NCBI GenBank assembly: GCA_029070965.1
Contig: JAIEBI010000020.1
Span: 45,498 to 109,497 of the forward strand
Length of the DNA stretch: 64,000 nt
Direction of reading: 5' to 3'
From: Clostridiales bacterium
Lineage (GTDB): Bacteria > Bacillota > Clostridia > Christensenellales > Pumilibacteraceae
Part shown: one piece after another, positions 2,695 to 23,800 of the stretch
Layout of the letters: the number at the start of each line of letters is the position of its first letter
Numbering within the stretch: position 1 is the stretch's first letter
The notes under the pieces: generated by a model
The model's input: the letters and a program-made list of their open reading frames with translations, nothing else
Told to the model about the DNA's origin: nothing
Database searches by the model: none
Program-made: the position numbers and the translations under genes

Positions 2695-3270
2695 TTATAG
2701 AGTTGCAAAAGTGATAAGGAACATAAGACCGAAGATTGCCGACAGCCCTGCCAATACGATGGCGGAAATGCTGAGAATAAGCGGAGCGATAGCCATGGGC
2801 GCGCCCTGCTTTTTGGCACGAACAACTGTCAAAAGCGAACGAATGCCAAACACAAGCCCCACAACAGTCAGCGGCAAAGCGAGCACAAAGAACACCCAAG
2901 CTACTGCTTTGATTGCTGTTAGGTCGGTTACCGTCGGGTATACGTACTCTCCCAGCTCGAAGTCAAAGCTCGGAGTCAAATGCCCGAGCCCGCCCCAGAC
3001 GTATTGGACGGCGAGAATAAACGCCACCAGCATAAACACGTACCCGATTGCGCCGGTTATCACCGCTGCGAGCGACGGCTTGAACGCGAGCATTCTCGGA
3101 TTGCCGCCCGACTTGGCGGCGGGTTGTTGCGGCTGCTGCTGAGCTGCGTTCGGCGGTTGAACGGCGTCCTGCTGCTTTTGCCCGTCGCCGAGCACCGACT
3201 CGTTGTGCGAGCACTCGTCGCATAACTGTTCCGGCCCGTCAATGAACTTGCCGCATTTTGTGCAATACAT
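2695..3270 (-). CDS. Zinc-ribbon membrane protein
   Basis: MYCTKCGKFIDGPEQLCDEC followed by Pro/Gln linker and hydrophobic segments. Confidence 0.7.
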   Translation of the reverse strand: MYCTKCGKFIDGPEQLCDECSHNESVLGDGQKQQDAVQPPNAAQQQPQQPAAKSGGNPRMLAFKPSLAAVITGAIGYVFMLVAFILAVQYVWGGLGHLTPSFDFELGEYVYPTVTDLTAIKAVAWVFFVLALPLTVVGLVFGIRSLLTVVRAKKQGAPMAIAPLILSISAIVLAGLSAIFGLMFLITFATL

Positions 3271-3304: not shown

Positions 3305-4240
3305 TTATACAAAATCGCGGACGAACTGTTTGACCTGTTCGTCGTAACCGCACTCGTCGTTTATGCGAATGTGCGAGTGAATACCCTTGTCGAACCAACA
3401 AATGCGCTTTTTCGCCGCGCATTTATCGTAAAGCTTTTGGACGTTGGCGGGGTCGGAAAAAACGTCCTCCCTGCTGTAAATAAACATTATCGGGATTTCG
3501 AGCTTGTTCACCATATTATACGGACAGAATTTTTTTGCGCTCTTGCCCGCCGCATGGCGAATGTACGACATTATAAGCGGGATAAACGGAAACGTCGGCT
3601 TTTTGCGTTCCTTAAACCTATATTTGAGCATTATGCCGAAGTCGTTGTACATGCCCTCGGTGACAAGCCCGTCAAAAAGCTTTTTGCCCTCGGGGTCGGT
3701 CGCGGCGTACGTTGCCGTCGCGCCGCCTATGCATATCCCGTGAAGCAATACGCTTTCCACACCGAATTCGGTTTTTAACAGCTTTGCCCACTCGATAATG
3801 TCCTTGTATTCGCGTAGCCCAATCGTGTTGTACTTGCCCTCGGACAGCCCGTGCGAGCGGTTATCGATAGCGAGTATATTGTAGCCCAGTTCCTTATAAG
3901 GCTTGGCAAAGTAGTACGAATACGCGCATGTTTCCATTCGGCCTGGGATAATAATGACAGCCTTTTTGCCGCCGAAATCGTAATACTCGCCGACCAGCCG
4001 CAGTCCCTCGCTCTTTACCGAAACCTGCTTGTGGAACGCGGCGTTCTCCTCGCCCCATTCCAACCCGATGCGGAACATTTCGCGCTGCTCCTCGTTGTCC
4101 CAGCTGCAATCCCTGCCCCACTTGTCGGGCGTTTCCCTTACCAGCAAAATGGTGTAGATTTTGCGCGATATAAAAATTATAATGAACACGGCGGGCGCGA
4201 GCAACAAAACTACGCCGAGGCTTATATACAGCGCAAGCAT
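3305..4240 (-). CDS. Alpha/beta hydrolase, membrane-anchored
   Basis: ORF 3305..4297; GICIGG nucleophile-elbow-like motif, N-term TM; start at MLALYI overlaps the upstream stop. Confidence 0.75.
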   Translation of the reverse strand: MLALYISLGVVLLLAPAVFIIIFISRKIYTILLVRETPDKWGRDCSWDNEEQREMFRIGLEWGEENAAFHKQVSVKSEGLRLVGEYYDFGGKKAVIIIPGRMETCAYSYYFAKPYKELGYNILAIDNRSHGLSEGKYNTIGLREYKDIIEWAKLLKTEFGVESVLLHGICIGGATATYAATDPEGKKLFDGLVTEGMYNDFGIMLKYRFKERKKPTFPFIPLIMSYIRHAAGKSAKKFCPYNMVNKLEIPIMFIYSREDVFSDPANVQKLYDKCAAKKRICWFDKGIHSHIRINDECGYDEQVKQFVRDFV

Positions 4241-5862
4241 CACATCACCCCCGCAATCAGGTCGTACACCGTTTGTCCGCCGTACACAAATTCGCACGAC
4301 AGTCCAAACTCGTTATCTATCCGCTCGGCAAGCGCGTCCTCGTCGATATCGAGCGCACAGCCCTTTATAATAAACACGCCGCTTTTGTCCGAAATATCCT
4401 TTACGTTTTTGAGCGCAACGACAAACGCGTCTTCCACGCTTTGCGCGGCGCACACAGGCTTTTTGCCGATAAAGCCGAGCATGTCGCCCGCCTTGCACGA
4501 AACGGTGACCGAATTGTAATTTTTAAGACTGCGCGCCACCGACACGGTGACCGCCGCCTTTATTCCGTCTGACATAGCCGATATGCGGGTTTGGGCGTCC
4601 TCTATGTCGGACGTGCCGTTGGCAAGCGCGTAATATCCCTCGATTACCGTTTGCGTCGGCAAAACGGTTACGCCGCCCTCGCCGAAAAGCGTTATCGCCT
4701 GCTCCGCCGCCTTTACGTTGTTGCCATTGTTGGGCAAAACCACAATGCAGTCGGCATTTGCGTTTTTGTACGCCGTGCAAAACTCGCTAGCCGACACGCC
4801 CATTGCGTGCCCGCCCGAAATTACGATGTCCGCTCCGCAGTCCTTGTACATGCCGGTGATGCCGTCGCCCTCGGCAACTGCAACGATGGCAAAACGCTTG
4901 CGCGGCTTAGCCGCTTTGTTCTTGATAAACTCGCTGTGTTGGAGCTGCATGTTCTCGATTTTTACGGTGGTGAACTCGCCGTAACGCTGCGCTTCCTCAA
5001 GCGCCTTGGACGGAGTGAGGGTGTGAATATGCACCTTGACTACGCCGTCCTGCTCGATGACGATAAGCGAATCGCCCATGCTCTCTAACGCGCGCGTAAA
5101 CTCCTTTACATGGAATGGCATTTTGTAGTCGAGCAGCTGCAACAAAAATTCGGTGCAGTAGCCGAGCGTGAACCTGTCGGATTTGTCAAGCACGCCGGTC
5201 TCCGACGAAACTCCGTTGCCTACCGCCGCTACCTCGACGGACGCGTCGATTTCCACTTTTTCGCCGTTGAGCGCTTTTAGCATGCCGTCGACTATTACGA
5301 TATAACCGAGCGCGCCGCTGTCCATAACGCCAGCTTCTTTAAGCACAGGTAGCATGTCGGGCAAAGTCAAATAGCTCTTGCGCATTTCGCCGAGGTAATC
5401 GGTCATTACATCCTCGACGCACTCGTTTTTGCCGACGGCGCGTTCTATCCCCTCGCGCGCGACTGTGAGTATCGTGCCCTCGACGGGATGGACTATTGCG
5501 CTGTACGCCGACTTGTACGCCGACGTAAACGCGGCATGCATTTCGCCCGCGTCGGCTGTCGAGCAGCTTTGCAGCTCATCGTAAATTCCCTTGAAAAGCT
5601 GCGACAGTATTACGCCCGAATTGCCGCGCGCACCCCAAAGCATGCCCGACGTCAGCGATTTAAGATACTCGCCGAGATTATTGTCGGGCGCCGCGCACTT
5701 TATTCCGTTTTCCAAAGTGGTGCGCATGTTTATGCCCGTGTCGCCGTCCGAAACGGGAAACACGTTCATTGCGTTGATTTCCTTTTCACGGTTACAAAGA
5801 TTGTTGTAACCGTTGATTATCATTGCGCGGAAATCGTCACCGTTGATTTGTTTATGTTTCAT
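4240..5862 (-). CDS. DAK2 (DhaL) domain protein, FakA-like fatty acid kinase subunit
   Basis: MNVFPVSDGDTGINMRTTLENG DAK2 motif; full-length two-domain architecture. Confidence 0.85.
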   Translation of the reverse strand: MKHKQINGDDFRAMIINGYNNLCNREKEINAMNVFPVSDGDTGINMRTTLENGIKCAAPDNNLGEYLKSLTSGMLWGARGNSGVILSQLFKGIYDELQSCSTADAGEMHAAFTSAYKSAYSAIVHPVEGTILTVAREGIERAVGKNECVEDVMTDYLGEMRKSYLTLPDMLPVLKEAGVMDSGALGYIVIVDGMLKALNGEKVEIDASVEVAAVGNGVSSETGVLDKSDRFTLGYCTEFLLQLLDYKMPFHVKEFTRALESMGDSLIVIEQDGVVKVHIHTLTPSKALEEAQRYGEFTTVKIENMQLQHSEFIKNKAAKPRKRFAIVAVAEGDGITGMYKDCGADIVISGGHAMGVSASEFCTAYKNANADCIVVLPNNGNNVKAAEQAITLFGEGGVTVLPTQTVIEGYYALANGTSDIEDAQTRISAMSDGIKAAVTVSVARSLKNYNSVTVSCKAGDMLGFIGKKPVCAAQSVEDAFVVALKNVKDISDKSGVFIIKGCALDIDEDALAERIDNEFGLSCEFVYGGQTVYDLIAGVM

Positions 5863-5885: not shown

Positions 5886-7361
5886 TTAGTTTTCCGCCGC
5901 CGTATCGTCAGCAACGCTGTCGACGACAGGCTGTTCAGCCACCTCGACCGTTGCAGGCTCGTCCGCTGCCGACTGATTGTCCGCTCCTTGCGCGTTCCCC
6001 GTCGCCTCAGCCATGCTATCCGACGCCTCGGTAGGCAGCGGCGCCTCGCCGAGTTTGCCGAGTACGTTTATCGACTTGGGCAAAATGAAGGATAGCGCAA
6101 AAGCGACCAAACAGCCCACGCTGCACAAAACGGTCAGATAAGTCATTGCGCCGCCGTTTTGTTTGAGTGCGGTAAGCACCACGCCGGTAGCGAGTCCGGT
6201 AGCGACGCCGGCAAACAGTCCCTGCACGGCAAAGTACATTGCCGAGTGCTTAATGCCCGTACGCTTTTCGTCCTCGGCGGCGAGGTGTGACGGAATGGAG
6301 TACGCCACAGCAAAAAACGCGCCTATCGAGAACGAGCAAATTACGCCGCCCAGTATGCCGCACGCCAGCTTTACCGCTCCGCTCGGCGAGAACGACGCGC
6401 CGAACAATGCCAACATACTCACCGAATAAGCGATAAGCGTATATCGGAAAGCGAACCCAAAGCCCTTCTTTTTGATTATGTAGTTGTACAGCATCAGCGT
6501 AAACGGCACGGGCACGAACGCACCCAACATAACATATATCATGCTCATGCCTGTATACGAAAAGTATTCGTTAATGCCGCCGAGGAAAAGCTGCGACCCG
6601 AAGGTCATAAAGGCGTACACGACCATCCAAAGAATAAAATCCTTGTTCTTGAATGTGTATGCTATCGACTTGAATAGATTTACCGTTTCGGACTCGAGCT
6701 TTTTGCCCTTTGTGCTCTCCTCTTTGATCATAAACATGGGTATTATCATCGTCAGCGATATAGGCAGGACAATAAGCGCAACCCACTTAATGTTCATGCC
6801 GCTGAGCAACATACGCACAACCACGTATCCGACGATAAAGTAGATTATGTCGGCTACCGACTTGACGTTGGAAACAAAGTTGCGGTCGTCGATATTGTCC
6901 ACCACCTCGGTAAACGTCGCATAGTACGTGACCATGGTAAGAGTATACGCCGCATAGAACAAGCATAGCACCAGCCCGAAAAACACGGTGTTGCCTATCG
7001 TCGCGCCGTTGTTGGGTATTATAAGCACAAACAATAGGTACGACGCTATCAGCGCAACAAGACCGATAAGTATTGTCGGGCGGCGCCGTCCCCATCGGCT
7101 TTTCAGCCGATCGGTAAACGACGCCATCGGTATGTCTATTATGCCGTCTATTATTTTTGCGACAAGCACGAACGCCGCCCATGCCGCCGCTACCACGAGG
7201 TCCTTTTGCGCAAAGGTTTGAAAGGGCACGTCCGCGGGTTTAAATCCGCCTTTAAGCAACGCGCTGCACAAGTACGAGCCCATCATTAGATTGAGCAGGT
7301 TTACGCCAAAGCCCGAAAAGCCGTACAGCAAGAGCTTTGCTTTTCCCTTGATTGGTTTCAT
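5886..7361 (-). CDS. MFS transporter, GPH sugar:cation symporter-like
   Basis: 12-TM-like; YGFSGFGVNLLNLMMGSYL and DRLKSRWGRRRP motifs. Confidence 0.8.
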   Translation of the reverse strand: MKPIKGKAKLLLYGFSGFGVNLLNLMMGSYLCSALLKGGFKPADVPFQTFAQKDLVVAAAWAAFVLVAKIIDGIIDIPMASFTDRLKSRWGRRRPTILIGLVALIASYLLFVLIIPNNGATIGNTVFFGLVLCLFYAAYTLTMVTYYATFTEVVDNIDDRNFVSNVKSVADIIYFIVGYVVVRMLLSGMNIKWVALIVLPISLTMIIPMFMIKEESTKGKKLESETVNLFKSIAYTFKNKDFILWMVVYAFMTFGSQLFLGGINEYFSYTGMSMIYVMLGAFVPVPFTLMLYNYIIKKKGFGFAFRYTLIAYSVSMLALFGASFSPSGAVKLACGILGGVICSFSIGAFFAVAYSIPSHLAAEDEKRTGIKHSAMYFAVQGLFAGVATGLATGVVLTALKQNGGAMTYLTVLCSVGCLVAFALSFILPKSINVLGKLGEAPLPTEASDSMAEATGNAQGADNQSAADEPATVEVAEQPVVDSVADDTAAEN

Positions 7362-7413: not shown

Positions 7414-8346
7414 TTACTTTTTGGCGAGCAACCGCGTTACAAGCTCGCGCTCCTCGGCGAGGTCCTCGGAAATGGGCTTGCCCATGTAGTATGCCGCCAT
7501 AAGCCCGGGGCCGACGTTTATTCCGCTCGACGGATATACGTAGTTGATGTACACCGCCTTGGGATGGAACTTGTCCTCGAGCATCTTTTTGTACGCTTCG
7601 GCTTGCTTGTATCTGTCCGCCGTTGCGACAAAAATAATTTGCTCCTCGGGATTTTCGATAGTCGCGGCTATGTATTCGAGCAGTACGGGGTACGCCTGCT
7701 TTTCGCCCTTAGCCTTGCCTATAACCGTCGTCATGCCGTTCTTGTCGAACTCGCCTATCGGCTTCAAGCCCATGAGCGTACCGAAAAACGCCTTGGCAGA
7801 CGTCAACCGACCCTTTTTGGCGACAAACGACAAATCGTCCAGCCAACCGGCTTGGTGGAAGCGATTAAGATTGTTCTCCACCCAATCGGCGGTTTCGTCG
7901 AGCGACTTGCCCTCTTTGCGCAACAACGACGCGTAAACGCAAAGCAAGCCGTGTCCGGACGAGAACCTGCGCGAGTCGATAGTGCGAATAGCGGCGTCCG
8001 GATATTTGCTTTTCACTTCCTCTACCGCCTTGGTCAAAAACGCATACGTTCCGCTGAGCGCCGAGCTAATGGTGAGCGCAAGCACGCCCACACCCTGTTT
8101 TGCATAATCTTCAAGCACGGTCGCCCATTCGTTTACGTTGGGCGGCGCCGTCGTATAGTCGTTGGGCTTTGCGCGCAACGCCTTGTAGAACTCGGACGGT
8201 GTGGTGTCGGTCCATTCGAGATAGGACTCATGCTCTTTGCCGTCGGGCGTGGTAAAGTGACCGTTGATATACTCGATGTCGTACTCCGCCCGAAGCTCTT
8301 TGCCGAGGTCGCAAGTGATGTCTGCCAAAATGACGAATTTTTCCAT
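7414..8346 (-). CDS. DegV family protein (FakB-like fatty-acid-binding)
   Basis: FVILADITCDL, TTAPPNVNEW, ALTISSALSGTY motifs typical of DegV. Confidence 0.85.
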   Translation of the reverse strand: MEKFVILADITCDLGKELRAEYDIEYINGHFTTPDGKEHESYLEWTDTTPSEFYKALRAKPNDYTTAPPNVNEWATVLEDYAKQGVGVLALTISSALSGTYAFLTKAVEEVKSKYPDAAIRTIDSRRFSSGHGLLCVYASLLRKEGKSLDETADWVENNLNRFHQAGWLDDLSFVAKKGRLTSAKAFFGTLMGLKPIGEFDKNGMTTVIGKAKGEKQAYPVLLEYIAATIENPEEQIIFVATADRYKQAEAYKKMLEDKFHPKAVYINYVYPSSGINVGPGLMAAYYMGKPISEDLAEERELVTRLLAKK

Positions 8347-8363: not shown

Positions 8364-9275
8364 TTAGAGATAATTATTGATAAAGTTGTGTATTTTTGCC
8401 GCCGAGTCGCCGTTTAGCGCGGCGGTCGTATGCCCGCAGCCCTCGACGAGCAAAAGCTGTTTGGGTGCCGAACACGCCTCGTAGTTTTGCCGCGAATGCT
8501 CGCATGGAACGGCGGCATCCTCCGTGCCGTGAATGAAAAACGACGGAACGGCGGTGTTTTTAATATGGTCGAGCGTGCTCGCATTGAAATCGATACCCAG
8601 CTCGCGCTTGCACCTTTTTGCCAGCATCGCAAACATCGGCTTGGGCGCATGGGTCTGTTTTGCTATCCGATTTATCATGTTGCCGACGGACGTAAACCCG
8701 CAGTCGTATACCGCGGCGCGCACATCGCTCGGCAGCCTGTCCGATGTCATTCCTATGATCGCCGCGCCCAACGATATGCCGTACAGCACGATTTTTGCGG
8801 GATGATTTTGGGTGATGAATTTTATCCATTCAAGCAGGTCGTCGCTTTCTCGCTTGCCATAGGTTACGTGCTCGCCGCCGCTTTTGCCGTGCGCGCGCAT
8901 GTCGGGAATGAGAACGTTGAACCCCCACTCGATAAACCGCTCGGCAGTCACCGAAAAATTGTTGAGCGGATGCGAGCTGGCGCCGTGCAAAAATATGACC
9001 GTCTTGTCCCGCCCATAGTCGTAGTACCGCCCGTACAGGTCTACGCCGTCGGCGGCAGTAATATGCTGTTCGGCAAACGGCAGCTTTTCCATTCGCTCGC
9101 GTGCGGCGCAAATGTCCTGCCTGAACTTATCGTAATGCGCGTCGGAAAGCTCCTTCCGCTCGATACCGCGAAAGAAAAACTTTTTGTAGCACATGTAGCT
9201 GCCTATCGGCATGGACGCGAGGAACCCGATAACCAAAAACGCGACTATTCCCAACCCGATATACAAATACATCAT
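8364..9275 (-). CDS. Alpha/beta hydrolase, membrane-anchored
   Basis: FLHGASSHPLNN, GISLGAAIIGM elbow; start MMYLYIG overlaps upstream stop by 4 nt. Confidence 0.8.
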   Translation of the reverse strand: MMYLYIGLGIVAFLVIGFLASMPIGSYMCYKKFFFRGIERKELSDAHYDKFRQDICAARERMEKLPFAEQHITAADGVDLYGRYYDYGRDKTVIFLHGASSHPLNNFSVTAERFIEWGFNVLIPDMRAHGKSGGEHVTYGKRESDDLLEWIKFITQNHPAKIVLYGISLGAAIIGMTSDRLPSDVRAAVYDCGFTSVGNMINRIAKQTHAPKPMFAMLAKRCKRELGIDFNASTLDHIKNTAVPSFFIHGTEDAAVPCEHSRQNYEACSAPKQLLLVEGCGHTTAALNGDSAAKIHNFINNYL

Positions 9276-10285
9276 ACCGTGCCCTCCGTCGCTATCGGCG
9301 TTGCGCCGCCGTCCTTCCACACAAAAAACCGTGCGTGGTCGGGGTTTTTCGCGCACACCGCTATCCTTGTGCCGTCGTAAACGCAAAGCTTGTACTTATA
9401 GTCGGCGGGATTTATCTTGTTCGGCTTGAACCCGCCCTTACCGAACGCCTTGAATGCGCTCTCCTTTTTTATCCATTGGCAAAGCAGCGTGTCATGCGAT
9501 ATATTTTCGCGCTTTGCGGATATTTTTACCCCAAGCGCGCTTACTGTATTGCTGTCATATCTATTCGCAAACGCCGCTATGTCCTCGGCGTCCACGCCGC
9601 ACGGCTCGTCGGAAACGGCTACGACGGCAAACGTATCGGTATGCGATATGGAAAACCACAGCTTGTCGCACACCCACTTGCCGTTTTTCAGTTTGTCGAA
9701 TTTCAGCTCGGGCAAAGCACAGCCGAAGCTGCGTTTTACCGCCGCCTCCAACAACAGCCACGCCGTCGTCTTTTGATTTTTTAACTTTTGCGAGGTAATG
9801 TTTTGCACCTCGTCCTGCCGCGCTTGCGGAACGAGCACGGCACTATTGTCGTCCGATACCTCCGCTATATACACGTCGAGTACCGAGCGCGACAGCCACT
9901 TGCCGCGCACCGCTTCCTCCTGCTCGCTGCGGTGAACTCCGAAATAACATTCGTTGGCAAAGTGCTCGCAGTTGTTGGTAATTACGTCGTAACCGCCCTC
10001 GCCTATACGGCTTTTTGCGGCGGCGACCGTTTGCTGCGGGGATAAACGCTTTTTGCGCTCGGCCTTGTCGGGAACACCCACCTCGACAAAGCTGCCGCAA
10101 CAAAACTTGTCGATGTCGGTCGCGCAAACTACCACGCCGACAGGATTTACATTCAGCCCGCCCACGGGCGGCAGTCCAAACTGCACGACCTCGTCGTCCG
10201 AAACGTAAATTCCGTAATGCAAAATCGCTCCGCACTTTACGCGGATCATGTCACCGAATTTGCAGTTGTCGACAATCCATTTCAA
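9272..10285 (-). CDS. LRAT-domain / 4'-phosphopantetheinyl transferase fusion
   Basis: N-term HYGIYVSDDEVVQFG..NCEHFANECYFG (LRAT-like); C-term FSISHTDTFAVVAVSDEPCGVDAED..WIKKESAFKAFGKG (PPTase motifs). Confidence 0.75.
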   Translation of the reverse strand: MKWIVDNCKFGDMIRVKCGAILHYGIYVSDDEVVQFGLPPVGGLNVNPVGVVVCATDIDKFCCGSFVEVGVPDKAERKKRLSPQQTVAAAKSRIGEGGYDVITNNCEHFANECYFGVHRSEQEEAVRGKWLSRSVLDVYIAEVSDDNSAVLVPQARQDEVQNITSQKLKNQKTTAWLLLEAAVKRSFGCALPELKFDKLKNGKWVCDKLWFSISHTDTFAVVAVSDEPCGVDAEDIAAFANRYDSNTVSALGVKISAKRENISHDTLLCQWIKKESAFKAFGKGGFKPNKINPADYKYKLCVYDGTRIAVCAKNPDHARFFVWKDGGATPIATEGTV

Positions 10286-10965
10286 TTTCGTTTACCGTAT
10301 TTCCTTTCGCAGAATTCTTGCAATTCTTTTTCCCTGTCGTACAAAAGCTGAGCCAGTGTCAGTCGGTAGGCAAGCGGCGATTTTTTGCGCTCCTCCTCGT
10401 CTACGTATATCGGCTCACCGAAAACGATTTTAATCCGTTCCCAACAGCTTTTGCGCGGACTGATATATACGGGAATTATGGGCTTGCCCGACATTATCGC
10501 CATAAGCACCGCGCCCGATTTGTACTCTCCGATCGTCTTGGTCGCGTCGTTCTCGTTGATATGCCCTTCGGGAAAAATGCCCACCACCTTTCCCGCATTG
10601 AGCAACGAAACTATTTCGCGCATGCTGCTCATGCTCGTGTTTTCGCGATCGATTGCCACAACGTTGGTGAAATGTTTAAACCACATGCGACTCCATTTAT
10701 TTTCGTATACTTCTTTTATCGTTACAAAATGCAACCGCCTGTACCAAACCGCCGTCATCAAATACGAAACGTCAAAAAAGCCGATATGATTGGACGCGAG
10801 TATCGCCCCGCCCTTAATCTTCTTTTTTGCGGCGGGGGTGACGTACAGCTTCTTCACGCGATAAGCAACCAGTGCAGGTATCGCACCGGTAACTCGCACA
10901 AAGTCGAACAGAAAGTATTTAAACGAGAAGATTTTACCCTTTTTGTTTTTCACCGAGCAGCTCAC
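10282..10965 (-). CDS. Lysophospholipid (1-acylglycerol-3-phosphate) acyltransferase, PlsC-like
   Basis: NHIGFFD (NHx4D) and FPEGH motifs. Confidence 0.85.
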   Translation of the reverse strand: MSCSVKNKKGKIFSFKYFLFDFVRVTGAIPALVAYRVKKLYVTPAAKKKIKGGAILASNHIGFFDVSYLMTAVWYRRLHFVTIKEVYENKWSRMWFKHFTNVVAIDRENTSMSSMREIVSLLNAGKVVGIFPEGHINENDATKTIGEYKSGAVLMAIMSGKPIIPVYISPRKSCWERIKIVFGEPIYVDEEERKKSPLAYRLTLAQLLYDREKELQEFCERKYGKRN

Positions 10966-11569
10966 CCAAGTCGATTATTTTTTGTCTAAGCGCGACGGTT
11001 ACGTCGTTTAAGTTTTGCCGATACGTTTTGTCGTCGTCGTACAGCTCGCGCGCGTCTATCGGCTTGCCTATTATTACGCGCGCCCGTTTTTTGCCGAAAT
11101 AATTGCCGTCCGTGTATGCGGGTATAAGCTTGACCCCCGTCATGAGCGCGAGTGCCGCCGCGCCCGTTTTGAACTCTATGGGCGGCGTTTCGCCCTCTTT
11201 GGCAAGTCGGCCCTCGGGGAAAATTCCCACCACGCCGCCTTTTTTGAGAATGCGCTCGGACTTGTCTATGCATGACGTTTCATGTGTGTCCCTGTTTACC
11301 TCAATGCCGCCGAGCGCCCGCAAAAATCCGCTTAGTCCCCTCTTTTTGAACAGCACCTCCGCCATTTGATAGCGCAGTGTGCGCGAAAAGAATACGAACA
11401 TCATAACCGCATAGTCGTAAACCGACGTATGGTTAGATATTATTATCGCCGGACCCTTTATCCGCCGAGACTGTGCTTTTTTGTCCTCGTAGTAGACTTT
11501 GGTTTTAAAGCACAGCTTTTGCGGTAGCCAGCCCGTGATTTTTACCAGCCAGTTAAACAGCGCTATCAT
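10934..11569 (-). CDS. Lysophospholipid acyltransferase, PlsC-like (second copy)
   Basis: NHTSVYD and FPEGRL motifs. Confidence 0.88.
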   Translation of the reverse strand: MIALFNWLVKITGWLPQKLCFKTKVYYEDKKAQSRRIKGPAIIISNHTSVYDYAVMMFVFFSRTLRYQMAEVLFKKRGLSGFLRALGGIEVNRDTHETSCIDKSERILKKGGVVGIFPEGRLAKEGETPPIEFKTGAAALALMTGVKLIPAYTDGNYFGKKRARVIIGKPIDARELYDDDKTYRQNLNDVTVALRQKIIDLGELLGEKQKG

Positions 11570-13479
11570 AGCTTGCCCTTGATGTACTCACTCATGCCTT
11601 TTACGGTGGTGAGCATTCCGTCGCCCTGCGGCAACGCCACGCCGAACTCGTTTTGCACCGCCGCGAGCAGCGCGTAGTAGTCGAGGCTCGACCCGCCCTC
11701 GTCGGCAAAAAAGTCGGCATTTACGGCAACAGCCTCCCCGTCCTTGCCGAGCGCGACCGCAAACAGTGCGCGCACCGACCGTTGAAGCTCGTCCAGCTGC
11801 TCGGCGTCCGACAGCTTGTCTATATCTACGACGGGAAGCGTCCCTGCAAGATATTCGGAGCGCAGCCTGCGACGGTTGAGCTTAAACTCCTCGCCGCGCA
11901 ACAGCGGCTCGCCGACAAACACTATATTGCCGATTTGCGCCGTCATGTTCAGCTCGGCAAGCCGAGCCTTTATCTCGTCCAGCAATGCCGACAGCTTTGC
12001 CTTGTCGGCAAACCGCGACACGCCTGCGAGCAGGACGGGCGCCGTTTTTCCCGCGACTATACACACTTCGCTCACCCCGTCAAAAGTCAGCTTGGGCTCG
12101 ACAAGATTGGGGTTTAGGTTTTCTCCCGACGCGCCGACGATAAGGTCATCCTTGCGCCCGAGTATGTAATACCTGCCGCCTTGCTTTTTGGCGAGGTCGT
12201 GGGTGTTGTAGTACCCGTCGCCTATGACGGTGGTGCCGTCGCTCTCTATTATTTCGTGACTGACCGATCTGCCCTTTACAAGCAGCTCGCCGTCGGCGCT
12301 TATCTTATACTCGACGGACGGCAGGGTTGTGCCCACCGAGCCGTTTGTAAGCAATTTGAATTTGGTCGACAGCTCGACAGAGGTTATGCCTATCTCGGTC
12401 ATGCCGTAGCCGTTTGCAAGCGGATAGCCTGCGGCGTTGAAAAAGCGCAAAACATCCGCCGAAACGGCGCTGCCGCCGGTAATGGTAAACTTTACGCTGT
12501 CGCCGAATAAATTGTCGCGCACTTCCTTAAACCCGAACTTCGTCACGAGCTTGCCCAATATCGGCACGCCGGCAAGCCGCAGTCCCTTGCGGAACTTTTT
12601 GTACGTCTTTTCGCCGCGCGCCTTTATTGTGGCGATTGCCTTTTTGTAGACGGTGTCCCAAAACAGCGGCACGGCAAATATATGCGTCACCTTGTGCCGA
12701 CGAATGGTGTTCAGTATGGTGTCGGGGCTGAGGTCGTTCAGCTTGACAAACGTGCGCGAGAAGAACCCGAACCAAATATACACCGCCACCAGTCCGAAAA
12801 TATGATAGAACGGCAAAAATGCGAGCAATTTAAGATTGCCCTCGCAATGCTTTTTTATGCGCGGGTTTTGCTTGATTATGTGCATGCTGTCGCGCACTTG
12901 TTCTATAAACTGCTTGGCGGTGTAGCCGCACACCTTGACCGAGGCCGACGTCCCCGACGACATGACAAATATCTCGGTGCCCAGCGCGTCGTAGTCGAGC
13001 TTAGTTTCCGCCCCGACTATATCTTTTTGGTTGACTGTTTTTACGCAATCGAAAACCTTGCCGTCAGAAATGACGAGCACCGCATTCATTTTTTTCAGCG
13101 CGTCCTCAAGCGCGAGCGTATCCAGCCGCAAATTGAGCAGTAACGGACGGCAGCCGCACAGCAGCACCGCCCAAAACATCTCTATCCAGTCCAACCCGTT
13201 GTCCATGTACAAGCCGACAACGCTGTCCGTCGGCGCGTCGCCTAGCATTGCTTTGAGCGTAGTCGCCCGCCGTTCTATATTGTCCTTGCACTCGCCATAC
13301 GTAGTTTTGTCTATCTTGTAGCCGCGCGACTGCTCGAATATCACGTTGTTCCGCTCGGAAAACATCAGCTCGTACAAAGACCGCATAGTAGGCGGCGCCG
13401 AATTGAGCCTGTCAATTTTGTACTGCGCAAACGAATTGAGCGTTTTGTAATTTTCTATGTGGTGATCAAACTTGGCCAT
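11566..13479 (-). CDS. AMP-dependent acyl ligase with C-terminal carrier-protein-like domain
   Basis: SSGTSASVKV, NGYGMTE, GRKDDLIV; C-term DEGGSSLDYYALLAAVQNEFGVALP resembles an ACP/PCP Ser motif. Confidence 0.82.
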   Translation of the reverse strand: MAKFDHHIENYKTLNSFAQYKIDRLNSAPPTMRSLYELMFSERNNVIFEQSRGYKIDKTTYGECKDNIERRATTLKAMLGDAPTDSVVGLYMDNGLDWIEMFWAVLLCGCRPLLLNLRLDTLALEDALKKMNAVLVISDGKVFDCVKTVNQKDIVGAETKLDYDALGTEIFVMSSGTSASVKVCGYTAKQFIEQVRDSMHIIKQNPRIKKHCEGNLKLLAFLPFYHIFGLVAVYIWFGFFSRTFVKLNDLSPDTILNTIRRHKVTHIFAVPLFWDTVYKKAIATIKARGEKTYKKFRKGLRLAGVPILGKLVTKFGFKEVRDNLFGDSVKFTITGGSAVSADVLRFFNAAGYPLANGYGMTEIGITSVELSTKFKLLTNGSVGTTLPSVEYKISADGELLVKGRSVSHEIIESDGTTVIGDGYYNTHDLAKKQGGRYYILGRKDDLIVGASGENLNPNLVEPKLTFDGVSEVCIVAGKTAPVLLAGVSRFADKAKLSALLDEIKARLAELNMTAQIGNIVFVGEPLLRGEEFKLNRRRLRSEYLAGTLPVVDIDKLSDAEQLDELQRSVRALFAVALGKDGEAVAVNADFFADEGGSSLDYYALLAAVQNEFGVALPQGDGMLTTVKGMSEYIKGKL

Positions 13480-14535
13480 TTAGATATATCTCTCGTAAAA
13501 GTCGGTAATTTGCTGAAACATTTGTATATTCAGCCGCGACGAGAATTTTTGTCTGTCTATCCCGTCGATAATCTTTTTTCGTTCGGCGGACGATGCCGCG
13601 CCGTCGATCGCGGCGCTCAACGTTTGTGTGTATTTCCAGCCTTCGGCGGAGTACAATATTGCGGTGTGTCCTGCGCCGCTCCAGTAAAACTCGACTCGCG
13701 GATTTTTTGAAAACGCCGAATAGTACGCGTCAATCCCGTACTTTGTAGGCACAACGTTGTCCGACGCGCCGTGCGCTATAAATACGCCTGCGGAACTCTT
13801 TTTCACCGCCTCTACCCCGTTTGCCGAAGCAAACTCGCCGAAGCGTATGCGTTCCACCGACTTGACGTACGGAAGAAGCGTCAGCGATATTTTGCCCGCA
13901 TACTCTACGCCTTTTGCCTCGATCATGTCGGTCGAGCGGGTAAATCCCGCCACGCTCGCAACGGCCTTTACGTCGCTGTCGTACGCCAAAGCGCACACCG
14001 CCGAGTATCCGCCCCAGCTGTGCCCAAACAGCACGATTGGCAGCTTAGACTGCTTTTTGACAAAAGCTATCGCGGCAAGCTCGTCCTTTATGCCCTGCGG
14101 CAGACCGCCCACCTCGCTCGGGCTTTCGTCGTTGCCCGTCGCGTCGTAGGCAAACACCTCATAACCGCATGCCGCAAAGTACGCCGACACGTCGAGATAG
14201 CCGTTTTGCCCGCCTCCGCCAAACCCGTGCGACAGTACTACCGTCGCCCGCGGCTGCGTATTTTTCGAGCAATACATGTACCCGACAAGCGTGTTCTCTC
14301 CCGACTTAAAGGTGTACCTTTGGCAGCTAAGGCCTTGGAAATCGCTTACCTCGAACCGAAGATGCTCGGCAGTCTCAAACCGTCGCCCGAACACTTTGTC
14401 GAGCACAACGGCGGATACGGTGTACGGCGCTACCACAAGCAAAATTAAAAGAACGGTAACGACCGAGACGCTCCAAACTATGAGCTTTTTTCTTTTACTC
14501 CACGCCATGACCCGCCTATACCTATCGTAGCCCAA
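13480..14535 (-). CDS. Alpha/beta hydrolase, membrane-anchored
   Basis: LSHGFGGGGQNGY, FGHSWGGYSAV elbow; N-term TM; start may be MAWSKR. Confidence 0.8.
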   Translation of the reverse strand: MGYDRYRRVMAWSKRKKLIVWSVSVVTVLLILLVVAPYTVSAVVLDKVFGRRFETAEHLRFEVSDFQGLSCQRYTFKSGENTLVGYMYCSKNTQPRATVVLSHGFGGGGQNGYLDVSAYFAACGYEVFAYDATGNDESPSEVGGLPQGIKDELAAIAFVKKQSKLPIVLFGHSWGGYSAVCALAYDSDVKAVASVAGFTRSTDMIEAKGVEYAGKISLTLLPYVKSVERIRFGEFASANGVEAVKKSSAGVFIAHGASDNVVPTKYGIDAYYSAFSKNPRVEFYWSGAGHTAILYSAEGWKYTQTLSAAIDGAASSAERKKIIDGIDRQKFSSRLNIQMFQQITDFYERYI

Positions 14536-15637: not shown

Positions 15638-17182
15638 TCACAATTTAGGAACACGACTTAGTTCTTTTATCACAGCATTCCCTTTCAGCCAAACATACTG
15701 CGGTAACATTTTTATTCCGTTGACGCTTTCGATTTTGTGTTTCGATGACGAATCGCTGCCCGCTCCTCTTATAAAGATATCGTTTTCTTGGCTCTTCATA
15801 AAATTAGGTGCGGAGCTGATTTCACCGCAAGCTAATAGTTTGTTCGAACCGTCTTTGTTTTTTTGAATAACATCAACAAGCGTATTATTAAATATTTTTT
15901 CTCGGATATCCAACCACACCGGCTTGACTGTTTCATCAATAAACTTATCACTAAAAACCAAACGCTTGAATCCGATGAATTTATTCATTAATAAAGATTT
16001 CCTCTCTTGATTATTAGTTATATCTTCTTTGCTCGGTTCCTCAAACAGAATGCAAATGAATTCATGATCAGCAAAATAAGAATAAAAATCGGAATCCTCA
16101 AACTGCATAGGGCGGACGATTCCGTCCTCGCCGACCATTTCTTTACGAGTCACCTCGTCAAAATCGATATGAAACAACTTCATATCTTCCGTCTTGGTGC
16201 CCTTTGGCGTAACAGTAATACTTTTGGCAATAACACCGAATTTCTGAAACAGTTCTATTTGATTGAGCTTTGAAGATGTGCCACCGAACATGGCAATAAT
16301 CAGCTGTTCTGCTATAGCCTTGTTGTCTTTTGTGAGGGTTATGCCAAGCGATTGCCCGATTTCGCTTATAGTCATGCCGGAATATTTTTCGGTCAATTCC
16401 TTGCACTTTAAATCTATATCTGTAACTACGGTGTATTTGCCGGGCAATTGCTCAAGCGTTTGACCGAAATGATTTGAGATAATCGTTGAAACGATAGGGC
16501 GTTTAAGCCGAAAGCGCGGTGGAAATTTAGGCGCCAAATCTATGTAACTCAACACTTGGCGTAGCTCGCCGTGAACATCGATGTATTCTTTACGAACTGC
16601 TTCCTTCCATTCTCTGGTTTTGTCGCCTGGATGATGAGAAACGACTTTTGAAACCAAAGCGTGAACATGTTCCCAATCTTGTTTTAGTGCCGTTTTTTCG
16701 TCGTCGGAAAATTCATGAAACTCATACCCCGTAATCGGAAACTCGCAATATTCGTAAGGAGAAACGGGATGATTTGCAGTATAGTGGTAATACACAAGTA
16801 AAAGATGCTCTAATTTGTTCCAAAAATGTGATGTTTCAAATACCTCATCGGCAATATCATATACGCCAACTGCCGTGATAGACATAGGCTCCTTGGCTTC
16901 AAAATGATTTTGAGGCGATGATTTTAAAACCATTCCCGTGCTTTTTAATTCGGTTTTAACACGTTTATTGTTTTCAACAACCAACAAATCCGCGTCTTGT
17001 TTAGTATCAGACTCATATCCAAGAACACAATTTTCGATGAATGTCCCCACAACACCTTTCTGTAATTCCATGAATCGCAGTTTTTCAAAAAAGCCAACCG
17101 TATCTATATCCTTAAGACATTTCCCAAGAATAGCATCGAATCTTTTTATTAACTCTGCTTTATCGTAAATGTGTTCTGCCAT
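15638..17182 (-). CDS. Sau3AI/MutH-family type II restriction endonuclease
   Basis: KGVVGTFIENCVLGYESDTKQDADLLVVENNKRVKTELKSTG nuclease motif; adjacent cytosine methylase. Confidence 0.8.
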   Translation of the reverse strand: MAEHIYDKAELIKRFDAILGKCLKDIDTVGFFEKLRFMELQKGVVGTFIENCVLGYESDTKQDADLLVVENNKRVKTELKSTGMVLKSSPQNHFEAKEPMSITAVGVYDIADEVFETSHFWNKLEHLLLVYYHYTANHPVSPYEYCEFPITGYEFHEFSDDEKTALKQDWEHVHALVSKVVSHHPGDKTREWKEAVRKEYIDVHGELRQVLSYIDLAPKFPPRFRLKRPIVSTIISNHFGQTLEQLPGKYTVVTDIDLKCKELTEKYSGMTISEIGQSLGITLTKDNKAIAEQLIIAMFGGTSSKLNQIELFQKFGVIAKSITVTPKGTKTEDMKLFHIDFDEVTRKEMVGEDGIVRPMQFEDSDFYSYFADHEFICILFEEPSKEDITNNQERKSLLMNKFIGFKRLVFSDKFIDETVKPVWLDIREKIFNNTLVDVIQKNKDGSNKLLACGEISSAPNFMKSQENDIFIRGAGSDSSSKHKIESVNGIKMLPQYVWLKGNAVIKELSRVPKL

Positions 17183-17206
17183 ATTTAACCTTCCGTATAC
17201 AAAAAA

Positions 17207-18436
17207 TTATGGTTCACTTGCTATAATAGTGTCTAAAATTTTGCCCATTCGAGTGATCATAGGAACAACCAGTGCGTTCCCCATACAGAAAAACCTCATC
17301 CTATCAGGCATACCGGTATTTGTCCAATCATCATCAAATCCTTGTAGCCGTTCAGCTTCAACCGGAGTTAACGTGCGAAGTCGCCCTGTACATGGGTCAG
17401 CCACAACGTGAGTCGAACGATTTAATGTAGATTCACTTGTAAGCATCGTGCGCCCGGGTCTATCCCACGGATCCGGGAAGGCTATTGCGCCTTCCGAAAA
17501 TGTGTATTCATGCCCTGTCGCTGCAATCCTCTGTTTTTTCTTTGCGCCTTTAAGATATGTCCAATCGGCCATCTTATCAGAAGTTATATAATATTTTTCA
17601 TCTACGTCTTTTTGTAAAACGTCTTTTAATAATATAGGGGCAATTTCATTTTCAATAGCTTTAGCTGTCCAAACCATACCTTTATGCATATAGCCCGCAT
17701 TTTCGAAATCAAATTTAAATGAATTGCTTATTTCTACTAAATCATACAACAACTTTGTCTGATTTATTTTTTCAAGTTCTTTAATAGGAAACGCTCGTGG
17801 CATTAAACCATCAGCCTGCATAATTTGTTCAGGTGTGATTTCGGAAAAAGCTTTGCCGTGCACAGTATCATTGCGATACGCAAAAATGAACGTCCTTCTC
17901 CGCCTTTGTGCCGCTCCGTATTGCGCCGCGTTGATAACACGCCATTCAGCACTATAACCAAGCTCTGCCAAGCAAGCCAAAATCATACCAAAATCCCTGC
18001 CGCGCTGATTAGCAGGAGATTTTAATAATCTATCAACGTTTTCCAAAAGACAAAACGGCGGATTTTTTGCAATTAACGTATCTCTTATTTGCCACCATAA
18101 AACACCCTTTTTGCCGGTAATTCCCTCCGCAGTAACAAGAGAATGTGCCACGCTATAATCTTGACAAGGAAATCCTCCGACAAGTAAGGTATGATTGGGT
18201 ATCGTATTTTTATCCACCACGCCTATGTCTGCGTCAGTATGGCATTCGCCATTTAATTCAAAGCAATCACCAAAATGACTCAGATAGCAGTCATGGGCCC
18301 ATTGAATATTTGCCCCGGGTTCCCATTGCGAAAACCATACCGTTTTCCAACCGGATTTCAATCGGTCGAACCCGAGTCGAAAACCGCCGACACCCGCAAA
18401 CAATTCACAAATAGTCTTTTCCATAAAGCCCTCCAT
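17207..18436 (-). CDS. DNA (cytosine-5) methyltransferase
   Basis: ELFAGVGGFRLGF, GGFPCQDYS, ENVDRLL, QRRRRTF; ORF extends to 18478. Confidence 0.92.
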   Translation of the reverse strand: MEGFMEKTICELFAGVGGFRLGFDRLKSGWKTVWFSQWEPGANIQWAHDCYLSHFGDCFELNGECHTDADIGVVDKNTIPNHTLLVGGFPCQDYSVAHSLVTAEGITGKKGVLWWQIRDTLIAKNPPFCLLENVDRLLKSPANQRGRDFGMILACLAELGYSAEWRVINAAQYGAAQRRRRTFIFAYRNDTVHGKAFSEITPEQIMQADGLMPRAFPIKELEKINQTKLLYDLVEISNSFKFDFENAGYMHKGMVWTAKAIENEIAPILLKDVLQKDVDEKYYITSDKMADWTYLKGAKKKQRIAATGHEYTFSEGAIAFPDPWDRPGRTMLTSESTLNRSTHVVADPCTGRLRTLTPVEAERLQGFDDDWTNTGMPDRMRFFCMGNALVVPMITRMGKILDTIIASEP

Positions 18437-18651
18437 TGACCGTTGGTCAATACCGCTTAAAAATTCATCAGCTACCATCGATAATCATCGAATCTTTTAG
18501 CTTAACTCAATTATAACATGTAAAAATTAATTTATCAAGGTAATTATATAATAAAATGGCTTTGCGCTACAACGGGAATATTATGCATATCAGTAAACAT
18601 AGCCCATCAACATTATAGCAATTATATATAAAAGTCATGCTAACACAAGAA

Positions 18652-19286: not shown

Positions 19287-20465
19287 TCAATTTTCATCTG
19301 TATCGCCATCTCCTATTGGCAATAACGGTACATTTGGTGTTGCTTGCGCGTCCGCTAACTGAATTCTTTGTTTCTTTTCGGAAAATAATTCATTAATTTG
19401 ACGATGTAAATTATTAATGAAATGCTCTGTTGTCTCCTTAGGCACTATACTCTCGTATTTTGATAAATTTTTCTTGATTTTCCTAAAAATACTTGTTGTC
19501 TGTTTTTTGACCATTTTTAGAAACTCTTCATCGTCAACGATTTCATCCAATAATTCTTTAGTATATTCGCAAAAATACTCAGCGTTGCTTAACTCTTCTA
19601 TATATTTATTTTGTCTCTTATTTAACGCATTCAAACATTCGTTCGATTTAATCTTGTCCAATACCGCCTTAACAGTAACCTCCATTCTGCTGTTGTTTGA
19701 ATAATCCGCCGGAACAAAATAATCGATACGTTCATTTTCTAATAATGAACGCACATGATCTATATTCCCGTTCGCTTTATCGTAAACTCCTATTGATGTT
19801 CCCCCTCCGTTTTTAATAATTTTCATCGCAGGGATATCTGTTTCACTATCTCCAATATATATAAAATTTCGAAATGGAATACGCCTGTCCTTTTCAGGGA
19901 TATAATTATTAATACTGTCTTCATCGCTGAGATCTAAACAGTCTTTACTAATACGAAAAAGATACTGCGTTTTAGTAGTATAATTGACAACTTGCCCCGG
20001 CCACTTAGGCTCACCATATGTTCCATATACAAACGAAGATGCATAAATATGCGTAAAGTAGTGCGCAATCGAAGTTCCTTCTATTATTTCCTTTAAACCC
20101 GCAGATATTATGTAATGTTCAATTTTTAAACCAAGAGTATCAGCATATTCATTGATTCTTTTAAACCATGTATCAACGCCGTCGAACAGCTCAATATCTT
20201 TTCCCATCGCTCTAAAATCGTCTTTTCTTAATGGAATTCCACTATACGATGATTTTTCCAAAATCAATTTCATATAGGAAAGTATCTTATCCGTAAAATT
20301 GTCCTTCGCAAATTTATTCGACTCCGCCCAAAAATCAGCGGCCTCGCAATTCAATTTTGGTAACAAAGAATAATTTTGCATATCTCTAGGCGATAAAGTT
20401 TTATCAAAATCATAACAAATAGCAACTATGGGGAAATTATTTACATTTTTTCCTTTATCTCTCAT
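19287..20465 (-). CDS. HAD-superfamily hydrolase
   Basis: AICYDFDKTLS, IISAGL, FIYIGDSETDIPAM motifs. Confidence 0.75.
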   Translation of the reverse strand: MRDKGKNVNNFPIVAICYDFDKTLSPRDMQNYSLLPKLNCEAADFWAESNKFAKDNFTDKILSYMKLILEKSSYSGIPLRKDDFRAMGKDIELFDGVDTWFKRINEYADTLGLKIEHYIISAGLKEIIEGTSIAHYFTHIYASSFVYGTYGEPKWPGQVVNYTTKTQYLFRISKDCLDLSDEDSINNYIPEKDRRIPFRNFIYIGDSETDIPAMKIIKNGGGTSIGVYDKANGNIDHVRSLLENERIDYFVPADYSNNSRMEVTVKAVLDKIKSNECLNALNKRQNKYIEELSNAEYFCEYTKELLDEIVDDEEFLKMVKKQTTSIFRKIKKNLSKYESIVPKETTEHFINNLHRQINELFSEKKQRIQLADAQATPNVPLLPIGDGDTDEN

Positions 20466-20850: not shown

Positions 20851-23800
20851 ATGTACGAGGAATATAATATAAAAAATGCAACTACTTTTGAAGAAGTGGT
20901 AAAAAGCCGACAGTTCACCTATGCGGGGATTGACATGGGTAATTTCGGTGTTTCTATCTTTTCTTCCATGTATGCCAATCCTGCACATTTTATTTATGAA
21001 TTGCTACAAAATGCCGAGGATGCTGGCGCCCATAATGTTAGATTTGATTTGCAAGAAAATGCATTGTTATTCTTTCACGACGGAGAGAAACTTTTTGACC
21101 TTAACGATCTAAAAGGAATAACAGGTTATGCGCAATCTGCTAAACAAGATAAATTCGGCAAATTTGGTTTAGGATTTAAAGCAGTATATACAATCTGTAA
21201 AACTCCCCTAATATATTCGGGAGATATGTGTTTCCAAATAAACAATTTTATTATCCCAAGCGAAATTGAGCCCAAAAAAGAGTATTCTCGCGGAACTTAT
21301 TTTATTCTTCCGTTCGAAAGCGATAAGATGGATACTGCCGCAATTTATAAAATGATTTATGAGGAATTAAGCAACTTGCCATCTGACTCAATATTATTTA
21401 CAAAAAACATCAAAAAGATTGATTGGAACACCTGCACGATAAATGGTTCAATTAAAAAAGAGTATGACCTTTTAGATGGAGCTACATCTCGTAAATGTAC
21501 GCTACGATTTGTAATCGACAATGAAAAACGCAGAAAAACTTATTTAATATTTTCAAAGCCTTGGACGGGAAACGAAAAGAAAGATATATCTATTGCCTTT
21601 AGATATAGCGAAGATCAAAAATCCTTAAGGGCAGAAAAGGCATCTAATATAAGTGTTTTATTCCCGACACGAGTAAATTCAAATTTGAAATTTAAGATTG
21701 ATGGACCTTTTGAAACCACACAAACGCGAGAAAGTCTAAATGAGGATAATACAAAGCATAATATCAACAAACAGATCCTTTCTGAATTGCTGGAACTATA
21801 TAATATTGCTATAAACAAAATTCAAGAGTATAATCTTTATTTGATAGATACTATAAAGATTTTGCCGTATCAAGACATATACCAAACAAATTTCGTTTAC
21901 GATGCATTTAAAGAAAGTACTCGCAACTATTTCTTAAACTGTGCAGCCATTCCCACAAGCAATGGATTGCAAAAGAAAGAATATTGTGTGATTGCCGGCG
22001 CAGCAAATCTCAAAGCTGTTTTTAGCCCAGATGATTTTTATAAATTATTTTCTAAGCATTTAGTTTTAGATATTACTGACACGGACGAATTTCACGATAT
22101 ATATAATTTTTTTACTAAATCATTAAAAATTCGGTCCGTAGAAATAGAAGCAATATTTACGGCAATTAAAGAAGATACGTTTGAGGGGAAGTCTGTAGAG
22201 TGGTTCGAAAAATTTTATGCTCTCTGTAATCAACGCAGTTCACAATGGCTCAAAAAGCAAAGGAATAAAGCAATTATTCTTACGGATAGCGGCGATGTAA
22301 AACCTGTTGTCAATGATTCCGACGTACCTATCGTGTTCCTACCCGGTGAATCATCTCTTAATCGAGACAAAACGAGAATTGTAAATTGTATTCTTCTTAA
22401 TACAGATGCAGGGAAAGCTTTTTTTGACACAATGGAAATAGGCATACAGGATGTTGCCGACTATATATTGGAAGATTGGTTGCCTGCCCTTATTGGTGAA
22501 AGCGATCCCGCACAATATTGTGAGGACTTAGCTGTTATTGCGGACGAATATAAAAAGATGCCGCTTATACAACAAGAAAAAATAATCGACGCTTTTAAAA
22601 AAGAGAAATGTATAGCCGTATCTTACAACGACAGATATGCTCTCGTGCAAGCCGAATATGCATACTTCAATACTGACATTAATAGAACGATGTATGCAGA
22701 CGCTTTTAATGCTTTTATTCTTTGCGAGGATCTTCAAGAGCTAACCGATAAAAATATTGATGTTAAACAATTATTATTGAAATTAGGAGTATGCAACTTT
22801 ATCCGATTTAATAAAAATTACTGTTGTTTGGCTTCTAAATACAAAGAAAAAATGCGTGCTGATAGTAGATATACTTATGAATATGATTCAGCATACTGCA
22901 TTGTTCATATTGATAATATCATACAGCATATTACACCAGAAATATCAAGAAGACTATGGAATACCCTAAAAGATTTACCGAATGAGTATCACACAGGAAC
23001 ATACTTTTGGGATTACTCTCATTCAAGAACATCTCGCACAATAAAGGCATATTTTTACTTTACCCTTGATACAGCACAATGGCTTTATAACACGGACGGC
23101 GAACTCATTACGCCGGCAGATATTACATATAGAGAAATAGCTGAATTATATGGCGAAAATAAGAACTTGGAGGAACATATCAATTTTAAAGAAGATGCCG
23201 TTTCGCAATTGCCGCAAGATTTCCAAAGGGTATATTCGCTTATGCGAAAGGGAGTGCCGGCGGAAGTGTTAGAACAGTTCGCTGCACAATATCTCGAGCA
23301 ACAGACAGAAAGCAAAGTCGTTTTATCCGATCCCACGGTTGGCGAATCGGTTGTATATACGAATTCATTTAATGATAAGGGTACCGATGAAATCGCATGT
23401 AGCGACGTGCTTCCAAATATTAACAGCGTTGCAAGCGACACATTTACCTCTTCCATTGAAGATAGTTCTACAAAACAATCTGATCGTGAAGTCAGGCACA
23501 CAGCTGCCGTCACCACTCACTCTAATATAAAAGTGAAGTTGGGCGTTTGGGGTGAGAAGAAAGTTATATCCGTTTTAGCAAAAGAATATGAAACGAATGG
23601 TTACGATGTTTTTAATGTTACTGAAAATGAGTTCTCAGCTGAAAAAGATAATAAATTAATTTGTGTAAGAAGAATGAATAATGATCAAAAAAATCAATGT
23701 GGATATGATATACTCATTTCTGAAAATGGAGAAGTGGCTAAGTATATTGAAGTAAAATGTAAGAGTAACAAACAAAAAGAGTCATTTCCTGTGCATGGAG

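Follow-up and report, generated by a model that had tools for sequence, protein, structure and literature searches.

An LRAT-phosphopantetheinyl transferase fusion within a candidate fatty acid-handling operon of gut and rumen Clostridia

The LRAT-family enzymes characterised so far take their acyl groups from phospholipids, not from carrier proteins (PMC4624172; PMC12994826). Tox-Act1 is a permuted NlpC/P60 effector that cleaves PG and PE (PMC12994826). In PLAATs the catalytic triad is completed by a histidine or an asparagine. For LRAT itself, mutagenesis has been cited as suggesting that this third triad position is possibly dispensable, and a second cysteine has been reported seven positions beyond the nucleophile (PMC3142127). 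In staphylococci, a role in acyl transfer is attributed to the permuted NlpC/P60 enzyme LnsA of the LnsAB lipoprotein N-acylation system, which bears a predicted signal peptide and depends on LnsB (PMC7387801). Acyl-ACP ligase activity, a PlsC-type acyltransferase and an MFS transporter are combined in the Aas/LplT system for the re-acylation of lysophospholipids, in which PlsC and the acyl-ACP synthetase form one protein and LplT is the transporter (PMC11416262). Finally, the fatty acid amide clusters of gut Clostridia (OaaA/OaaACP/OaaC) use a stand-alone adenylation enzyme to load a fatty acid on a carrier, and the acyl group is then transferred by an NRPS condensation domain, not by an LRAT-type enzyme (PMC13142362).

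We analysed a 64,000-nucleotide stretch of a Clostridiales genome (contig JAIEBI010000020.1, positions 45,498 to 109,497; hereafter the window), which contains an operon with elements of several of these systems. The operon runs from position 14535 down to about 3305 and comprises the following features, given in the order of transcription:

13480..14535, minus strand: alpha/beta hydrolase (S33 type) that opens the run and has a hydrophobic helix at its N-terminus (PF12146, E-value = 1.5e-16)
11566..13479, minus strand: AMP-forming acyl ligase with a C-terminal carrier domain, 637 aa (PF00501, E-value = 3.1e-36)
11581..11778, minus strand: carrier (PP-binding) domain of this ligase, residues 568-633, with a GGSSLD motif (PF00550, E-value = 4.8e-9)
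10934..11569, minus strand: PlsC-type acyltransferase A, 211 aa (PF01553, E-value = 3.3e-22)
10282..10965, minus strand: PlsC-type acyltransferase B, 227 aa, overlapping the start codon of the fusion gene (PF01553, E-value = 4.5e-20)
9272..10285, minus strand: LRAT-PPTase fusion protein, 337 aa, with a TTG start at 10285
9932..10267, minus strand: LRAT/PLAAT-type permuted NlpC/P60 domain of the fusion, residues 7-118 (Pfam PF04970, E-value = 2.1e-18)
10217-10219 and 9968-9970, minus strand: codons of His23 and Cys106, the catalytic dyad positions of the LRAT domain
9275..9868, minus strand: Sfp/AASDHPPT-type 4'-phosphopantetheinyl transferase (PPTase) domain of the fusion, about residues 140-337 (profile, Foldseek and residue evidence)
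8364..9386, minus strand: alpha/beta hydrolase (S33/Hydrolase_4 type) with an N-terminal hydrophobic helix (PF12146, E-value = 3.1e-18)
7414..8346, minus strand: DegV/FakB-like fatty-acid-binding protein (PF02645, E-value = 6.7e-53; FakB1 6mh9, E-value = 8e-23)
5886..7361, minus strand: MFS_2-type transporter (PF13347, E-value = 2.7e-28)
4240..5862, minus strand: FakA-like fatty acid kinase subunit (PF13684/PF02734/PF21645)
3305..4297, minus strand: alpha/beta hydrolase (S33 type; PF12146, E-value = 9.3e-14)

The stop of the PlsC gene lying upstream overlaps the first codon of the fusion gene. The hydrolase following the fusion probably starts at an ATG near 9275 rather than at the listed TTG that overlaps the fusion, and the last hydrolase probably starts internal to the listed GTG. 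The MFS_2-type transporter found no match in the PDB sequence search. Directly after the last hydrolase lies a gene (2695-3270, minus strand) for a 191-aa zinc-ribbon-like plus membrane protein; similar proteins recur beside the operon in three other loci (L105, L107, L108), often in tandem. On the other side of the operon we observed a Type II restriction-modification pair (15638-18478, minus strand), composed of a MutH/Sau3AI-like endonuclease (REase_II, E-value = 9e-98) and a C5-cytosine methyltransferase (MTase_II, E-value = 6e-157). This pair is adjoined by a HAD-family protein (19287-20465, minus strand) matching the PADLOC candidate defence family PDC-S34 (E-value = 3.5e-116). Also encoded there is a protein of 1042 aa that combines sacsin-like ATPase and NOV_C domains (20851-23979, plus strand; PADLOC TmtA, E-value = 1.5e-64); with the restriction-modification genes it has the appearance of a defence island.

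The operon resembles Aas/LplT in parts. It differs in having separate PlsC proteins and an MFS_2 transporter, and it adds a carrier domain borne by the ligase, a second PlsC protein, the LRAT and PPTase domains, FakA/FakB and the hydrolases. The stand-alone adenylation enzyme is shared with the Oaa clusters. A Pfam scan of the ten operon proteins returned no match to a condensation domain, the place of which would be held here by the LRAT domain.

An earlier reading of the sequence alone had proposed an LRAT domain joined to a PPTase at 9272-10285; its coordinates were right, the gene being on the minus strand, and all of the motifs on which it relied are located in the translated protein. They are HYGIYV (residues 23-28) and NNCEHFAN (104-111) in the LRAT half, and SISHT (212-216), GVDAED (230-235) and WIKKESAFK (271-279) in the PPTase half. 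Both domain identities are supported by profile searches and by fold comparison. In the single-sequence search the LRAT half matches its Pfam family with the score given above. The PPTase half scores weakly (PF01648, E-value = 0.06; PF22624, E-value = 0.03; both under the Pfam cut-off), and the NCBIfam AcpT model matches it with an E-value of 5.5e-5. A profile built from 31 homologues of the fusion and compared with PDB sequences matched Sfp (1qr0/4mrt, E-value = 2.1e-13) over residues 154-288 and human PLAAT3 (4dot, E-value = 1.5e-9) over residues 5-127. The same alignment served to build an AlphaFold2 model (mean pLDDT 93, pTM 0.74). Foldseek searches of this model against the PDB retrieved AASDHPPT (2cg5, E-value = 2.4e-9), Sfp (4mrt, E-value = 1.3e-8) and PLAAT3 (4fa0, E-value = 7e-6, TM-score 0.80 on the target), with mycobacterial PPTases and PLAAT4 also among the matches. 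The protein has no apparent signal peptide, and we regard it as probably a bifunctional cytoplasmic enzyme.

The LRAT half is like the PLAAT/LRAT family (PF04970; 4dot/4fa0) in fold, in its permuted order with the histidine ahead of the cysteine, in the presence of these two residues and the NCEHF motif, and in the spacing of the second cysteine. Residues His23, Tyr99, Asn104, Cys106, Glu107 and His108 are invariant in all 33 fusions aligned, the N-C106-E-H-F motif is constant across them, and Cys113, seven residues past the nucleophile Cys106, is kept in 32 of the 33. The fusion differs from that family by its fused PPTase, by its linkage to carrier genes and by the third triad position (His35 in PLAAT3), which is glutamine in the window protein and varies among glutamine, alanine and glutamate across the fusions. 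The PPTase half is similar to Sfp/AASDHPPT enzymes (1qr0, 4mrt, 2cg5) in fold and in His215, the GVDxE metal-binding motif and the W..KE...K motif; it differs from them in being joined to an LRAT domain, as the C-terminal half of one protein, where they stand alone, and in its single-sequence score under the curated cut-offs. The window protein carries His215, Asp232, Glu234, Trp271, Lys274, Glu275 and Lys279. Over the family, the set His215/Gly230/Asp232/Glu234/Glu260/Trp271/Lys274/Glu275/Lys279 is complete in 28 of the 33 fusions, one position off in two (E234Q in L027, W271F in L039) and lost in three with a decayed PPTase half (L024, L029, L037). The earlier impression that both halves are catalytically intact holds for the PPTase residues and for the Cys/His dyad, with a qualification at the third PLAAT triad position.

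About 35 homologous LRAT-PPTase fusions were found on independent contigs of gut and rumen Clostridia, the records being mainly MAGs, so that the architecture is conserved in relatives and a gene-prediction error or artefact as its origin is ruled out. A family-level search returned full-length fusions in four genomes besides that of the window (G006, G008, G045, G058). The fusion loci are L002-L005, L013-L041 and L046, plus further genomes of the order; a scan of genome contigs contributed L013-L041 and L046, a few of which end at contig edges. A 396-genome sample of the order yielded about seven complete fusions, along with many homologues of the PPTase or of the LRAT domain that stand alone. 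The usual gene order in relatives is the ligase-carrier fusion, (an MFS protein of ~640 aa), PlsC-A, PlsC-B, a second AMP ligase of ~503 aa, an ACP of ~83 aa and the LRAT-PPTase fusion. In nearly all intact relatives, the end of the discrete ACP gene and the start of the LRAT gene lie only a few bases apart. One group of relatives continues as the window does, with an alpha/beta hydrolase, DegV/FakB, the MFS_2 transporter, FakA and a hydrolase. The second ligase and the discrete ACP were searched for in the window genome and are absent from its operon, and likewise from the same-genus loci L002 and L003. The only other AMP-binding protein of the genome, 530 aa long and encoded on contig C38, was considered as the counterpart of the second ligase and rejected, with at most 31% identity and no ACP beside it.

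Several operons possess the LRAT domain without the PPTase. In the LRAT-domain tree, the backbone of which is weakly supported, the LRAT-only proteins L042-L045 and L006 branch among the fusions, an apparent sign of repeated loss of the PPTase. Other joinings of operon parts also exist: a PPTase is fused to an alpha/beta hydrolase in L007 (1483-3192), this partner being a relative of the first hydrolase of the window operon (13480..14535), and a PlsC is fused to an LRAT domain in L009 (1498-2508). These rearranged fusions support a functional linkage of the operon parts.

A PPTase function of the fusion is supported by its exchange with separate Sfp-type PPTases. All three genomes with a decayed fused PPTase (L024, L029, L037) hold a separate Sfp-type PPTase elsewhere. 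Among the operon genomes tested, a separate enzyme of this type is present in 9 of the 12 with a decayed or absent fused PPTase versus 4 of the 14 with an intact fusion (Fisher one-sided p = 0.024, a test that ignores shared ancestry and MAG incompleteness). In the window genome (94.5% complete), family hits reveal only two PPTases, an AcpS-like protein on contig C25 and the fusion, and only two PP-binding carriers, a 72-aa AcpP on contig C46 and the operon ligase. AMP-binding ligases are two in number. The ligase carrier, the one carrier besides AcpP that the genome was found to encode, is the most likely target of the fused PPTase; the same target had been suggested by the sequence-only reading, and its candidacy is strengthened by the PF00550 match and by this count of two PPTases and two carriers.

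A search for beta-ketoacyl synthases gave no match in the window genome and a positive result in all 14 control genomes. The bacterium appears to lack type II fatty acid synthesis and to be a fatty acid auxotroph, yet AcpP, AcpS and PlsX are kept. Many genomes of the same genus also lack the enzyme. In G004, G006-G008, G011 and G034-G047 we observed proteins of ~770-820 aa with two ketoacyl-synthase domains and a weaker score, these genomes being otherwise without FabF-type synthases. Given the same-genus absences and the fact that the matches in others are such long double-domain proteins, a gap in the assembly is an improbable cause of the absence in the window genome. The simplest reading is that the window lineage depends on outside fatty acids, for which FakA/FakB and the ligase-carrier protein would be the entry points. 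Across the 37 genomes that have the operon, for which completeness is not given, 28 exhibit no ketoacyl-synthase hit. A FabF-type synthase is found in some fusion carriers (L029, L034, L035), indicating that the fusion system is not confined to fatty acid auxotrophs. A strict link between the fusion and the loss of FAS II is unsupported in the family, many genomes without FabF being also without the fusion. FabF is present in 4 of 10 genomes with a decayed or absent fused PPTase versus 2 of 27 with an intact one (two-sided p = 0.035, exploratory, one of two tests), a contrast that we take only as a lead.

On balance we favour, from domain content and gene order, a scheme in which the PPTase of the fusion primes the carrier of the operon ligase and the LRAT half acylates a lipid or amine acceptor during the assembly of scavenged fatty acids into lipids. 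The PPTase half would move phosphopantetheine from CoA to the ligase's carrier domain, a step with good support; in relatives the discrete ACP encoded just upstream would be a further target. Once primed, the ligase would attach scavenged fatty acids to the carrier, so that acyl-carrier thioesters become available to the PlsC-type acyltransferases. In a further step, which is moderately supported, Cys106 in the LRAT half would form a thioester with an acyl chain coming from acyl-carrier or from phospholipid, and the chain would then pass to an acceptor, either a lipid or an amine. The fusion would tie the production of holo-carrier to an enzyme that consumes or remodels the carrier's acyl group. 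Gene order favours acyl-carrier as the donor, which is a guess; the LRAT half could equally draw on phospholipids, as its characterised relatives do. Against the scheme as a whole stand the lack, in the window operon, of the second ligase and discrete ACP found with the fusion in most relatives, the presence of a FabF-type synthase in some fusion carriers, and the many relatives that have neither FabF nor the fusion. In the most specific form of the scheme, the protein would be a self-priming LRAT-family acyltransferase: it would arm the carrier that is its partner, accept that carrier's acyl chain on its own Cys residue and pass it on to a lipid or an amine; we propose this form tentatively, our own estimate leaning somewhat against it.

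The LRAT half may instead be a PLAAT-like phospholipase A/transacylase acting on membrane or imported lipids, with the PPTase as a passenger that primes the operon carrier and no chemical coupling between the two. Characterised family members do act in this way, as seen in PLAATs (PMC4624172) and Tox-Act1 (PMC12994826), PlsC and hydrolase genes suited to remodelling adjoin the fusion, and both the PlsC-LRAT protein of L009 and the operons that keep the LRAT domain without the PPTase fit such an activity. Nevertheless, in six of the loci where the PPTase is missing (L042-L045, L048, L050) the LRAT gene still stands directly after the discrete ACP gene, suggesting a link to the carrier, and the window protein has no evident membrane-anchoring segment, unlike most PLAATs. 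We regard this explanation as rather unlikely. Quite unlikely in our estimate is that the operon makes a specialised N-acyl product (a fatty acid amide, an N-acyl-lipid or an N-acylated protein), the LRAT domain forming the amide in the place of a condensation domain. Its logic is that of the gut fatty acid amide clusters, with a stand-alone adenylation enzyme, a carrier and an acyl-transferring enzyme (PMC13142362); moreover, PLAATs are able to N-acylate PE (PMC4624172), and S. aureus requires its LRAT-like LnsA to N-acylate lipoproteins (PMC7387801). Glycerolipid assembly is instead what the PlsC, FakA/FakB and hydrolase partners suggest, and in the window operon we noticed neither an obvious amine-supplying gene (e.g. 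a decarboxylase) nor a membrane partner resembling LnsB. In contrast to LnsA, the fusion belongs to a carrier-protein operon and brings its own PPTase. As for a chance or assembly artefact, or a PPTase half that is a pseudo-domain, the sub-threshold single-sequence scores and the decayed halves of L024, L029 and L037 could be read in this direction; with the same architecture on independent contigs from about 35 genomes, and with complete PPTase residues and a confidently predicted fold in the window protein, we consider it highly improbable.

No paper bringing together "LRAT" and "phosphopantetheinyl transferase" was found among open-licence PMC texts. The fusion and its operon appear undescribed, though their parts belong to known families. 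If the proposed coupling is true, LRAT-type enzymes, studied mainly as phospholipid users in vertebrates, would gain bacterial members that draw on acyl carrier proteins, and the acyltransferase would have a priming enzyme of its own travelling with it. The operon occurs across gut and rumen Clostridia, many of them without detectable enzymes of fatty acid elongation, and it may serve these uncultured bacteria to build membrane or signalling lipids from the fatty acids of the host or its diet.
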